NCBI RefSeq assembly: GCF_009695545.1
Contig: NZ_VUNS01000003.1
Location: 248,001 to 312,000, forward strand
Source: Victivallis lenta
Lineage (GTDB): Bacteria > Verrucomicrobiota > Lentisphaeria > Victivallales > Victivallaceae
DNA: 64,000 bases
Direction: 5' to 3'
The notes under the pieces are model-generated. The model ran no database searches. It saw nothing but the letters and a program-made list of their open reading frames with translations, and had not been told where the DNA came from. Position numbers and translations under genes: made by a program. Positions 6,184 through 57,951 of this stretch are shown piece after piece. Within the stretch, counting starts at the first letter, position 1, and each line of letters begins with the position of its first letter.

Positions 6184-7578
6184 TCAGTCTCCGATCCGGG
6201 CCGGCGCCTGCTTCGAGCGGCGCAGCCCGGAGGCGGCGGCCTGAAGCTGCAGCGCCGCCATCAGCGCGAGGAACGGCAGCGCCGGCAGCTGGTAGCGCGG
6301 CGCCGTAATCGGCCCCGGCAGGAAGAAGTAATACTCGACAAATGCAAGGAAGAGAAAAATCCAGTACCACTCCCGGCGCAGGTTCACCGCCCAGACGATC
6401 AGCTTCCACAGCGCCAGCGCGTACATCGCCAGCGTGACGCAGAGCAGCGGAATCACCGGAATCAGCACCCAGAGCCTGTCTCCGAAGTAGAAACGGACCG
6501 CCGCAGACACTCCCTCTTTCTGCATGACGTCCATCGTGCCGCGTCCCGCGCTCGTCACCCCGAGGATTTCGAAGAAAGTCGGCGCGTCCGGCAGCAGGAT
6601 GTGCGGCCGGAAGTGCTGCGGCAGCCAGACCAGCGGATGCGCGAAAATCAGCTCGCGGAATTTCTTGAGCCGATAGCTGCTCCGGCTCTTCCGGTCCGGA
6701 TATTTCTCCGCATCGGCGAATTCCGTTTCGAGTTCCGCGAGAATCTTCGCCTTTTCCTCCTCGAAGCTCGAACGGTTGACCCGGGCGAGAATCATCGCGC
6801 CGTTCTGATGATACATTGCGCCGGTGTTCGTATCGATCGACCACCCCGCGCCGAGGGCCGCGTTGCGCCCCATCCACGGCAGCAGCACGAGCAGGAACGC
6901 CGCGAGCCCGGCAACTCCGCCGGCCAGCTTCTGTTTCCAGCCGAGCCCCGGCCGGACGGCGATCAGGAAGAGCGCCGGCAGCACCCAGACCGAGTTGATC
7001 GGCCGGATCAGGGCCCCGACTCCGGCCAGGAACAGCGTCAGGACGAACCAGCGCGGATCGCTTTTCCGGTGAAACTTCCCGAAACAGCCGAACATGAGCG
7101 CGGCGATCAGTCCGAACAGCGTGTCGGAGAGCAGCATCGGCGCCTGGGCGATCATGGTCAGGTTCAGCACCGTGAAGCCGCAGCCCCACAGCGCCGTCCG
7201 CCGGTCGAACCAGACGGTTCCGGCCCAGTAGACCGCCAGCGGAATCAGCGCCCCGGCCAGCAGCAGCGTCACGGCCAGCGCCGCCGCGTTCTCCGGCCCG
7301 AAAAGCCGGAACACCAGCGACGCGAAGAACGGGAAGCCCGGCGCCCGCCCGCAATTCGGTTCGCCGCCCGGACAGTCGAGGTAGCTCCCTTCGGCGGCGA
7401 GCGCGCGGGCCGGGCCGAGGTAGCCCGGCGTATCCGGACGCGAAAAACACGTTTCGGCATCGCCGCAGAGCCCCGGCAGGGCGACCGCCAGCCGCAGCAG
7501 AAGCCCCGCGGCGAGCAGAGTCAGAAGGACGCGGTTCTCCCGCACGAAACGACGGACGCGGGCGGCGGAGTCGGGCAT
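6184..7578 (-). CDS. Polytopic membrane glycosyltransferase, GT39/ArnT-like
   Basis: The product has 464 residues. It starts with a short basic segment (RVRRFVRENR) followed by many hydrophobic helices (LLTLLAAGLLLRLAVALPG, AALAVTLLLAGALIPLAVYW, AAFLLVLLPWMG and others). After the first helix lies an acidic loop with SRPDTPGYLGPARALA, in the position of the catalytic Asp loop of GT-C enzymes such as protein O-mannosyltransferases and ArnT. It probably moves a sugar from a polyprenyl-phosphate donor to a lipid or protein at the outer face of the inner membrane. I start at the ATG at 7578, where the hydrophobic protein begins. It is convergent with rhaA with 44 bases between, and shows no functional link to it. 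Confidence 0.75.
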   Translation of the reverse strand: MPDSAARVRRFVRENRVLLTLLAAGLLLRLAVALPGLCGDAETCFSRPDTPGYLGPARALAAEGSYLDCPGGEPNCGRAPGFPFFASLVFRLFGPENAAALAVTLLLAGALIPLAVYWAGTVWFDRRTALWGCGFTVLNLTMIAQAPMLLSDTLFGLIAALMFGCFGKFHRKSDPRWFVLTLFLAGVGALIRPINSVWVLPALFLIAVRPGLGWKQKLAGGVAGLAAFLLVLLPWMGRNAALGAGWSIDTNTGAMYHQNGAMILARVNRSSFEEEKAKILAELETEFADAEKYPDRKSRSSYRLKKFRELIFAHPLVWLPQHFRPHILLPDAPTFFEILGVTSAGRGTMDVMQKEGVSAAVRFYFGDRLWVLIPVIPLLCVTLAMYALALWKLIVWAVNLRREWYWIFLFLAFVEYYFFLPGPITAPRYQLPALPFLALMAALQLQAAASGLRRSKQAPARIGD

Positions 7579-23505: not shown

Positions 23506-23534
23506 ATTATACGCAATTCGCATTGAAAAAGCAA
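23506..23534 (-). promoter_or_regulatory. Leftward promoter of the divergent carbohydrate locus
   Basis: On the minus strand TTGCTT (23529-23534) and TATAAT (23506-23511) are 17 bases apart. The -35 lies in the outer inverted repeat described separately. Confidence 0.75.
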
Positions 23535-23604
23535 GCCGTTTTCATGAGATTTGCATTTTTTTAAAGAAATAAGAATTGCAAATCGAATCAGGCTCTTGCT
23601 TTTT
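23526..23604. promoter_or_regulatory. Nested inverted repeats between divergent promoters
   Basis: The outer arms AAAAAGCAAG (23526-23535) and CTTGCTTTTT (23595-23604) contain the two -35 boxes. The inner arms GATTTGCA (23548-23555) and TGCAAATC (23577-23584) share nearly the same centre. The inner pair is a good operator candidate for the GntR-type or IclR protein encoded on either side. Confidence 0.6.
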
Positions 23605-54338: not shown

Positions 54339-55367
54339 TTAGGCTTTCCGGGTTGGAATGCAGGAACCGCGTTCGATGAATGCACCGGGAATATACTCCT
54401 GGATCAGCTCCGGCTGATCCAGCTTCTGGTTGCGCGTGATGATTTCGACGGCGCGTTCCGCCACGGCGTCGTAATTGTTGCTGATCGCGGCGATTTCGGG
54501 AGTGAACGCCTCGGCGGTCGGCCAGTCGTCCATCCCGACGATCGACAGGTCGCCGGGGACGGCGAGACCGCGTTTGCGGAGCTGCTTCAGGCAGAAGCCG
54601 ATCGTGGTCGGATTGCCGAGCAGCAGGGCATCCGGCCGGAGCGGAAGCACATCGTCGAGAAAGGTTTCGACCAGCTCCGGCGTGTCGATTTCGCGCAGCG
54701 GCTTGCAGTAAATCAGCTCCTCGTCGACCGGGAGCCCGGCGGAGGCATGGGCGTCGCGGTAGGCGCGAAGCCGGGCGTGGCAGTCCGGCGTGTCGTACGC
54801 GGTTTTGGCGTAGACGATCCGGCGGTGGCCGCGCCGGAGCAGCGCGTCGACCGCGAGACGGAAATTGCCGTAGTAATCCGGAGAAACGAAGCTGAACGGC
54901 TCCCTGCTCAGCGGCGGATTGATGAAGAGCACGTTCCGGAACGGCTTGAACAGCGGCGGAATCGTCGCGGCGAAGTCGTAATAGTGGGCGAGGCAGATCA
55001 CGCTTTCGATATTGTAGCCGAGCAGGTCGTCCACATATCGCCGGATCGTGTCGAAGCTGTCATGCACCAGGCCGATCTGGAGCCGTCGCCCTGAAAGGAA
55101 AATCCGCTTTTCGATCGCGGCCATGATGTTGTTGTAGAGCCCGCAGCACTGGCTGTCGATGATGACGCCGATGATGTCGTTCTTGCGGTGCGCAAGCTGC
55201 TGGGCGACGAGATTCGGCCGGTAGCCGAGCTTGTCGGCGGTTTCACGCACGAGCCGGACCGTGCGGTCGCTGACTTTCGTGGTTTTTCCGCCGCCGCCCA
55301 GGAGCGCTTTCGACACGGTGGATTTCGATACCCCCGCCTCGCGTGCAATTTCTGAAAGCGTAACCAT
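54339..55367 (-). CDS. LacI-family regulator, autoregulated
   Basis: The product has 342 residues. The helix-turn-helix is [25 protein letters not shown], the hinge region [24 protein letters not shown]. The sugar-binding domain includes [40 protein letters not shown] and [21 protein letters not shown] use the ATG at 55367, because the in-frame ATG at 55401-55403 lies inside the palindromic operator. It heads the operon with the pseudopilin, the hydrolase and the solute-binding protein. Two identical palindromes sit at its promoter. Confidence 0.93.
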
Positions 55368-55388
55368 GGATTTGAATTCCCCTGTTGA

Positions 55389-55404
55389 AATGTACCGGTA
55401 CATT
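55389..55404. promoter_or_regulatory. LacI operator 1 (leader)
   Basis: AATGTACCGGTACATT is a perfect 16-base palindrome with the central CG typical of LacI-family operators. It lies downstream of the promoter, before the start codon. Confidence 0.8.
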
Positions 55405-55462: not shown

Positions 55463-55491
55463 ATTATGACATGTACCGGTACATTTGTCAA
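55463..55491 (-). promoter_or_regulatory. Promoter of the LacI operon with operator 2 in the spacer
   Basis: On the minus strand TTGACA (55486-55491) and CATAAT (55463-55468) are 17 bases apart. The spacer holds the palindrome ATGTACCGGTACAT (55471-55484), identical to operator 1, so the bound repressor would cover the core promoter. Confidence 0.85.
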
Positions 55492-55648: not shown

Positions 55649-55677
55649 TTGCAATCCGTAAAATGCTGCGATATAAT
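55649..55677 (+). promoter_or_regulatory. Promoter of the first Gfo/Idh/MocA gene
   Basis: TTGCAA (55649-55654) and TATAAT (55672-55677) are 17 bases apart. An inverted repeat TGCAA-CCGC-TTGCA (55640-55653) overlaps the -35 box and may be an operator. Confidence 0.7.
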
Positions 55678-55722
55678 AAAGAAAGGGTAGATCCCTGAAC
55701 GATTAGGAAAGGAATTCTGGAA

Positions 55723-56898
55723 ATGGCGACCAAAGCGGCAGCGGCAAAGAAGGCGCCGGCAAAAGCCCCGGCGAAAGCTCCGGTCAAAAAGGCTCCGGCG
55801 AAGAAGGCAACGGTAAAGAAGGCGGAAGCTCCGAAGAAGCTTCGTGTGGCGATCATCGGCTGCGGCGGTATCAGCCACGCCCATATGGCGGCCTACAAAT
55901 CGATTCCGGAGGTCGAGCTGGTCGGCTTCTGCGACATCAATCCGGAACGGCTGACCGAGTACCAGGAAAAATACGGAGTCAAGCCCGAACAGTGCTTCGA
56001 GAAGTGGGACGACCTCTTCAAGACGGTCAAGCCGGAAGCGGTCGACATCTGCACCCCGAACGGCGTTCACTGCCCGGCCGCGGTCGCGGCCTCCGAAGCG
56101 GGCTGTCACGTGATGGTCGAAAAGCCGATGGCGATGACGCCGGACGAATGTGAAAAGATGATCGCCGCGGCGAAAAAAGCCGGCAAGCTCCTGGCCGTCG
56201 GCTTCCAGCACCGTTACAACTCGAAGACCGATTATCTGGTCAAGGCGCGCGACGAGGGTAAATTCGGCAAGCTCATGTTCGTGAAGTGCCAGGCGCTGCG
56301 CCGCCGCGGCATTCCGAACTGGGGCGTGTTCGGCCGCAAGGATCTCCAGGGCGGCGGCCCGATGATCGACATCGGCGTGCATGTCGTCGAAATGGCGCAC
56401 TACTTCATGGGGTCGCCGAAGCCGGTCGCCGCGACCGGCAACTGCTGGACCTATCTCGGCGACAAGCCGAGCGAAGTCATGAGCATGTGGCCGAACTGGG
56501 ACTACAAGACCTACACGGTCGAAGACCTCGCGATCGGCCATATCCGCTTCGACAACGGCATGATCATGCAGATCGAGTCGTCGTTCGCGGCCCATATCGA
56601 CAAGGACGAATGGAAGTTCGTCGCCATGGGCGAAAAGGGCGGCTGCGACTGGGATCCGCTGCAGATTTTCACGGACGACGCCGGTGCAATGGTCCACATC
56701 AAGCCGGATTACGTCGCGCCGGACTGGAACAAGGACTGGACCTACCTGTTCGCCCGCAAGCTTCAGAACTGGGTTGACGGCATCCTGAAGGGAACCCCGC
56801 TGCGGGCCTCCGGCGAGGAGGGTCTCGCGATCCAGAAGATTCTCGACGGCATCTACCGCTCCGCCGAGCAGGGCGGCAAGGAAGTGCCGATCAAGTAA
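55723..56898 (+). CDS. Gfo/Idh/MocA oxidoreductase with Lys/Ala/Pro-rich N-terminal tail
   Basis: The product has 391 residues. Residues 1-39 are an unusual basic low-complexity tail (repeats of AKAP, KKAP and AKK) before the Rossmann start LRVAIIGCGGISHAHMAAYK. EKPMAMTPDECEKM carries the conserved Glu-Lys-Pro, and GGGPMIDIGVHVVEMAHYFMG the catalytic Asp/His region. The family oxidises or epimerises sugars with NAD(P). The tail looks like a bacterial histone H1-type tail. The second gene of this family follows after a terminator. Confidence 0.9.
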   Translation: MATKAAAAKKAPAKAPAKAPVKKAPAKKATVKKAEAPKKLRVAIIGCGGISHAHMAAYKSIPEVELVGFCDINPERLTEYQEKYGVKPEQCFEKWDDLFKTVKPEAVDICTPNGVHCPAAVAASEAGCHVMVEKPMAMTPDECEKMIAAAKKAGKLLAVGFQHRYNSKTDYLVKARDEGKFGKLMFVKCQALRRRGIPNWGVFGRKDLQGGGPMIDIGVHVVEMAHYFMGSPKPVAATGNCWTYLGDKPSEVMSMWPNWDYKTYTVEDLAIGHIRFDNGMIMQIESSFAAHIDKDEWKFVAMGEKGGCDWDPLQIFTDDAGAMVHIKPDYVAPDWNKDWTYLFARKLQNWVDGILKGTPLRASGEEGLAIQKILDGIYRSAEQGGKEVPIK

Positions 56899-56916
56899 TC
56901 GTTTGCATTGGAATCG

Positions 56917-56944
56917 ATCCCGGTTTTGCGCCGGGATTTTTTTT
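56917..56944 (+). terminator. Terminator between the two Gfo/Idh/MocA genes
   Basis: ATCCCGG (56917-56923) pairs with CCGGGAT (56931-56937) and is followed by a run of T to 56944, just before the next ribosome binding site. Confidence 0.8.
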
Positions 56945-56955
56945 GGAGGAATGTC

Positions 56956-57951
56956 ATGAAACGAATCGCTGTCGCCGGGGTCGCGCATATTCATATGCCG
57001 CACTTCGCCAAGCTGTTGAAGGAACGTCCGGGATTCGAAGTCGTCTCGGTCTGGGATCACGATGCGTCCCGGGCGGAGAAGTATGCCAAAGAGCTCGGCT
57101 GCGGTGTCGCCGCAAGTTGCGAGGCGCTCTGCCGGGATGGTTCCGCCGATGCGGTCGTCGTCTGTTCGGAGACCGACCGCCACAAGGGAATTGTTCCGCT
57201 CGCCGCGAAGGCCGGAAAACATCTGTTCGTCGAGAAGCCGCTCGGATTTTCCGCCGCGGATGCGCTCGCCATGGCCGATGCGGTCCGCGAAGCGGGCGTG
57301 CTGTTCCAGACCGGCTACTTCATGCGCGGATCTTCCGTGCATCAGGCGCTGAAGAAGATGGTGAATGACGGTGTGTTCGGCCGGATCACCCGCGTGCGCC
57401 ACGTGAACTGCCACCACGGTTCGCTCGGCGGCTGGTTCGATACGGATTACCGCTGGATGGCCGATCCGACCGTCGCGGGCTGCGGCGCCTTCGGGGATCT
57501 CGGCACCCATTCGCTCGATATCCTGATGTGGCTTTTCGGCAAGCCGGAGCTGGTCACCGGCGATATCCGGACGATAACCGGCCGGTACGGCGAAAACTGC
57601 GACGAAACCGGCACCGCGCTTCTGAAATTCCCGGGCGGAATCGCCGGCACGCTTTCGGGCGGCTGGGTCGATGTCATGAATCCGGTGACTTGCGAAATCA
57701 GCGGCACGGAAGGCTTTGCCTATGTGCGCAACGGCGAGCTTTTCGTGAAATCCTCGAAACTCGACGGCGCCGACGGTTCTTCTCCGTGGAAGGAGCTGCC
57801 GGCCGAGCTGCCGCACGCCTTCACGCTTTTCCTCGACGCTGTCGAAGGAAAGAGCGTCCCGCTGGTGACTGCGGACGAGGCCGCCGCGCGCAACGTCGTC
57901 ATGGAAGCGATCTATCGGGCCGCACGCACGGCGACCTGGGTCAAACCCTGA
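56956..57951 (+). CDS. Gfo/Idh/MocA family oxidoreductase
   Basis: The product has 331 residues. RIAVAGVAHIHMPHFAKLL is the Rossmann start, VVVCSETDRHKGIVPLAAKA and LFVEKPLGFSAADALAMADA the cofactor and Glu-Lys-Pro region, and GCGAFGDLGTHSLDILMWLF the catalytic Asp/His segment. It lacks the basic tail of its neighbour. GGAGG lies 6 bases before the ATG at 56956. It probably acts on the same or a related sugar; the substrate is unknown. Confidence 0.92.
   Translation: MKRIAVAGVAHIHMPHFAKLLKERPGFEVVSVWDHDASRAEKYAKELGCGVAASCEALCRDGSADAVVVCSETDRHKGIVPLAAKAGKHLFVEKPLGFSAADALAMADAVREAGVLFQTGYFMRGSSVHQALKKMVNDGVFGRITRVRHVNCHHGSLGGWFDTDYRWMADPTVAGCGAFGDLGTHSLDILMWLFGKPELVTGDIRTITGRYGENCDETGTALLKFPGGIAGTLSGGWVDVMNPVTCEISGTEGFAYVRNGELFVKSSKLDGADGSSPWKELPAELPHAFTLFLDAVEGKSVPLVTADEAAARNVVMEAIYRAARTATWVKP

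Follow-up and report, generated by a model that had tools for sequence, protein, structure and literature searches.

Why would a sugar oxidoreductase of a gut bacterium begin with a basic, repetitive tail reminiscent of histone H1? The question is raised by a gene in the window, by which we mean the whole 64-kb stretch of DNA analysed here, whose product opens with 39 residues dominated by alanine, lysine and proline (AKP) and continues as a Gfo/Idh/MocA enzyme (Table 1). We consider it reasonably probable that the tail is a repeat-expanded, disordered arm of generic electrostatic or solubility character on a DgpA-like enzyme. Since one close relative has almost nothing of it left, the tail is in all likelihood an ordinary low-complexity feature that is not essential, and not a module for binding DNA.

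Table 1. Features of the tailed gene and its surroundings (positions in the window)
Feature	Position	Strand	Remarks
LacI-family regulator, divergent	54339-55403	-	PF00356 and PF13377
Sigma-70-type promoter-like site TTGCAA-17-TATAAT	55649-55677	+	10/12 consensus positions
Likely ribosome-binding site AAAGGA	55708-55713	+	read from sequence
Open reading frame (391 aa)	55723-56898	+	begins with 39-residue Ala/Lys/Pro stretch
39-codon Ala/Lys/Pro N-terminal tail	55723-55839	+	codons 1-39; net charge about +12
Gfo/Idh/MocA oxidoreductase body, DgpA-like	55840-56898	+	stop codon 56896-56898
Terminator-like hairpin, then T run	56916-56938	+	3 such sites found where chance predicts 3.5
Neighbouring Gfo/Idh/MocA paralogue, tail-less	56956-57951	+	PF01408 from residue 3

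Composition and translation of the tail

The tail reads MATKAAAAKKAPAKAPAKAPVKKAPAKKATVKKAEAPKK and holds 15 alanines, 13 lysines, 5 prolines and a single acidic residue, in keeping with its first description as basic and of low complexity. The predominance of alanine, lysine and proline, which the initial annotation had seen, amounts to 33 of the 39 residues; in the enzyme body their share falls to 23% (P = 6e-16, binomial). When stretches of this length with at least six lysines were ranked in any frame of the 64-kb window, the runner-up had 18 such residues. Within the tail, the DNA at 55742-55824 consists of imperfect tandem repeats with a unit of 12-15 nt.

The ATG at 55723 follows a promoter-like site, as had been claimed; two such sites were found where 0.9 were expected. 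Among four relatives examined, similar hexamers and spacing occur 5' of L011 and L012 and are not recognisable 5' of L013 and L014, and GAAAGGATTTTCAG precedes the ATG in L011 and L012. An in-frame stop at 55696-55698 makes a start much further upstream impossible. Downstream, the next in-frame ATG, GTG or TTG is the GTG of codon 42, the sole alternative before the Rossmann motif; the ATG of codon 55 sits beyond the GxGxxG nucleotide-binding motif. Translation from this GTG, which is in frame and would leave the tail untranslated, seems to us barely credible and was rejected: it would cut into strand beta-1 (residues 40-45), the ATG at 55723 has a likely Shine-Dalgarno site, and the tail is under coding constraint.

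That constraint is seen when the window's enzyme (L001) is compared with L012. The tails differ at 16 sites, 13 synonymous and 3 non-synonymous, whereas 16 differences placed at random in a neutral simulation gave a mean of 11.3 non-synonymous changes, with three or fewer in 0 of 5,000 runs. Aligning a repetitive tail tends to mask changes; this pair has one gap only. As the dN/dS of the tail (0.051) matches that of the core (0.062), the comparison indicates that the tail is translated and upholds the earlier view that it is real, and the low value shows that it is not simply neutral, its amino-acid make-up being selected. Neutral low-complexity growth, with its sole effect, if any, on translation start through early Ala and Lys codons, would fit the unstable tail length and the DNA repeats, but too few of the changes in the tail are non-synonymous, and we hold it to be very improbable. 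Additionally, L015 and L016 have the same tail across all 41 residues, encoded with three synonymous differences; this hints that the tail has a role, though the two bodies are identical as well. Between L011 and L012, the aligned tail changes faster than the body (dN of 0.075 versus 0.006), and indels come on top of this.

A DgpA-like enzyme body

The body matches the Rossmann NAD-binding domain PF01408 (E 1.6e-30, 106.7 bits, cut-off 24) and, in its C-terminal alpha/beta domain, PF02894 (E 3.1e-20, 73.4 bits, cut-off 22.9) and PF22725 (E 2.9e-20, 73 bits, cut-off 27). The EKP motif, a defining mark of the Gfo/Idh/MocA family, is present as E133 K134 P135 and invariant across 53 aligned sequences. 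An NCBIfam search of the enzyme yielded no equivalog at its cut-off. By sequence, DgpA and DgpA1 come closest among solved structures (E 6.8e-62 and 5e-61). A Foldseek search with a model of the relative L024 agrees on DgpA, which is a Gfo/Idh/MocA C-/O-glycoside 3-dehydrogenase (PDB 7xr9, 7xre and 9m3d), and VIA-align superposes the window's model on it with Z 40-41 and 33% identity, the alignment starting at model residue 36-38. The two enzymes have the stretch RRR..P.WGVF..K..QGGGP.IDIG.H in common. We infer that the window's protein is an NAD(P)-dependent, DgpA-like glycoside or sugar oxidoreductase, and 3-dehydrogenase activity is likely on grounds of homology: DgpA, as described in passages of PMC11239390, uses NAD+ to oxidise the C3 position of C- and O-glycosides.

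Across the 57 places examined, no stable gene-order partner of the tailed enzyme was found. A gene for an AP_endonuc_2-type TIM-barrel protein (cluster 2) lies nearby in at least 7 of them, the window included, an identity taken from Pfam scans of two of the seven; neighbour-gene counts are lower bounds because greedy picking of open reading frames took antisense frames (cluster 1, 18 loci). AP_endonuc_2-type proteins also occur in C-glycoside cleavage. The window's own genome (5.5 Mb) has 34 matches to the Gfo/Idh/MocA enzyme, a large repertoire of sugar oxidoreductases.

Distribution and history of the tail

From a scan of genome contigs that kept 80 of 138 relatives, we tabulated the N termini of 57 (L001 and L011-L066), counting the stretch up to the Rossmann motif; 10 loci whose match was apparently on the opposite strand were left out of the counts. 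A tree was built from 56 of the bodies alone, leaving out L065, a partial gene. All 57 N termini have net positive charge before the motif, from +1 to +15, in a stretch that takes in the first residues of beta-1 (L-R-V-A-I or its like). In most of the Lentisphaerota proteins tabulated, the leader measures about 20-25 residues and is of the type SVSTKM...YKGKK or NDSLAM...YKGKK, and a sequence expression for the GKK type matched 31 of the 56 proteins in the tree. One such leader is encoded ahead of the Rossmann domain at L024:3938-4012. The neighbouring paralogue is indeed tail-less, as had been noted, its Rossmann domain beginning almost at once (Table 1), and in the four of nine own-genome paralogous loci with a readable N terminus (L005-L008) the distance from Met to motif is 6-10 residues.

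A long AKP tail is found in six of the 56 proteins (L001, L011, L012, L014, L015 and L016), a small sample of tailed species. Together with L013 these form one branch, comprising Victivallis and its sisters, with support of 100/100, and L013 nests inside it (100/96). The protein of L013 is 90% identical to the window's, and its leader is reduced to 11 residues, MAKKTAATNKK. Across the seven, the lengths are 39, 31, 40, 11, 27, 41 and 41 residues, the long ones thus spanning 27-41, and identity to the window's protein is 77-94% among the other six. As L013 nests inside the long-tailed branch, the tree is most simply read as one gain of the long tail and one shortening (two changes). Conservation in orthologues, which the initial annotation had proposed as a check, thus held in part: the tail is kept in near relatives, but only 11 residues persist in L013.

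The enzyme itself is patchy in distribution rather than core, as matches occur at E<=1e-100 in six of nine genomes of the genus, with identity down to 56% in G001, and in 22 of 78 genomes of the family at E<=1e-90. The other three genomes of the genus gave no match at E<=1e-100.

Predicted structure

In an AlphaFold2 (AF2) prediction from 53 sequences, 267 of the 391 residues have a pLDDT of at least 90 and residues 1-28 fall below 50. The AKP tail of the monomer scores 35-45 and beta-1 spans residues 40-45; the tail is thus predicted to be intrinsically disordered.

Glucose-fructose oxidoreductase (GFOR), a structural relative with Z of about 35, has a proline-rich N-terminal arm that packs on the neighbouring subunit, and like the window's enzyme, a member of the same superfamily, it carries this extension ahead of its Rossmann domain. 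The extension could then be a group-wide, GFOR-like arm between subunits, which this clade would have modified into the AKP tail. The leader of about 20-25 residues that recurs in orthologues outside the clade would suit such an arm, as would the apparent hexamer reported in passages of PMC11239390 for D3dgpA, which, like the closest structures, is a dgpA product. The AKP tail differs from the proline-rich GFOR arm in being polycationic and, by prediction, disordered. Against the arm stand the low score of the tail, that of the leader of L024, also as a monomer (pLDDT 51-69 in blocks of ten), and DgpA, which aligns from its residue 0 and has no extension comparable to that of the window's enzyme. 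We judge an inter-subunit arm to be distinctly unlikely.

Relation to histone-like proteins and basic repeats

The tail had been likened to those of bacterial histone H1-like proteins, and this kinship did not survive profile searches. Searched alone, it has no Pfam match (E<=1) and no NCBIfam match, and no histone-like family matches it; the HC2 model (PF07382) has two matches genome-wide, both below cut-off and neither at the tailed gene. A DUF6465 match over residues 3-38 (E 0.2) is also under the cut-off and was taken as compositional. With no profile match over cut-off, kinship with histone-H1-like families was rejected. Chlamydial Hc2 (PF07382) also has lysine-rich repeats that vary in size, according to PMC2848022, but there the repeats fill much of a DNA-binding protein.

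Similar repeats occur elsewhere in the lineage. A codon-pattern search for KK[APTS]3KK in nine genomes of the genus, which covers chosen motifs only, matched the window tail, its counterparts in two genomes (G006 and G007) and unrelated proteins. For example, L139 (G002, contig C181, near 6858-6979), which we take to be an S2-like ribosomal protein from its sequence, has a long C-terminal Lys/Pro/Ala tail with repeated KKPAA (KKPAAKKPAAKKPAA...), and L138 (G001, contig C193, near 23524-23576) is a small secreted-looking protein with KKPAP repeats right after a signal-peptide-like start. The matches at L140, L143, L146 and L149 lie in short or doubtful frames. The last of these (own genome, contig C32, near 35666), a mechanically called open reading frame only, appears to encode a TatA-like small membrane protein with a basic Lys/Ala/Ser-rich end. 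Since the pattern also matched unrelated proteins, the lineage evidently makes AKP repeats on several proteins. Given such repeats and the lack of a match to a histone-like family, 'histone-H1-like' holds for composition only, and Ala/Lys/Pro repeats should not be taken as a sign of histone kinship.

In the window's own genome, the codon pattern AKKAPAK gave only two matches with fewer than two mismatches, both inside the tail, and 21 with two mismatches, one of them in the tail; the reversed control pattern gave 48 against these 23. In homology searches the tail had no match but itself within its own genome, and three of nine genomes of the genus gave matches, itself included; these searches are no proof of absence because the L015 tail missed even the window's own tail. 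A limited literature search found no published description of the AKP tail.

A specific tether to polyanions, by which the tail would bind DNA, RNA or polyphosphate and so bring the enzyme to the nucleoid, to ribosomes or to granules, the presumed role of the KPAA tails of AlgP and PhaF, is in our estimation unlikely. The positive charge is kept across the clade, and the tail resembles the AlgP region in composition and repeats: passages of PMC9239181 describe the AlgP/PhaF tails as basic Ala-Lys-Pro repeats, predicted to be disordered and variable in repeat number, and report that KPAA peptides bind DNA and that AlgP associates with polyP granules. In AlgP the repeats form a C-terminal region of 154 residues on a DNA-binding protein, whereas the window tail is N-terminal, four times shorter at 39 residues and attached to an enzyme. 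Further, the tail matches no Pfam or NCBIfam family, and no gene among the neighbours examined hints at a link with polyP or the nucleoid. The reduction to 11 residues in L013, within the tailed clade, also tells against the specific binding function that had been suggested. We likewise give little credence to a broader proposal, in which the basic leader of the orthologous group has a conserved purpose, as a tether to an acidic partner or as an arm between subunits, and in the Victivallis clade became a histone-like AKP tail by which the enzyme is held at the nucleoid, at ribosomes or on polyphosphate. Such a polyanion tether for a sugar enzyme would, if true, add a new means of positioning metabolism in the cell.

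Proposed origin and role of the tail

The generic arm that we favour may have arisen as follows. Orthologues throughout Lentisphaerota carry short lysine-rich leaders in other forms. The common ancestor of Victivallis and its sisters would have had a leader of this kind, and tandem Ala-Lys-Pro codon repeats then took its place or lengthened it, presumably through repeat slippage. The tail has later grown and shrunk between 11 and 41 residues while staying basic throughout, and most likely serves as a flexible arm of electrostatic or solubility character, with a weak, non-specific affinity for acidic surfaces; such generic effects would be enough to account for it. It is probably dispensable for folding or catalysis, as its length and exact sequence vary. 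Points that count against this reading are the selection on its amino acids, the identical tails of L015 and L016, the faster change of the aligned tail between L011 and L012, and the small number of tailed species. The locus offers a small, clean example of a basic low-complexity tail gained and then shortened on an enzyme that is highly conserved in its other parts.

Finally, the palindrome ATGTACCGGTACAT occurs twice between the divergent LacI-family gene and the tailed gene (55390-55403 and 55471-55484), and both copies look like candidate operators of that regulator. One copy overlaps the LacI open reading frame when this is taken at its longest; the true start of the frame is probably further in, at MVTLSEIA.
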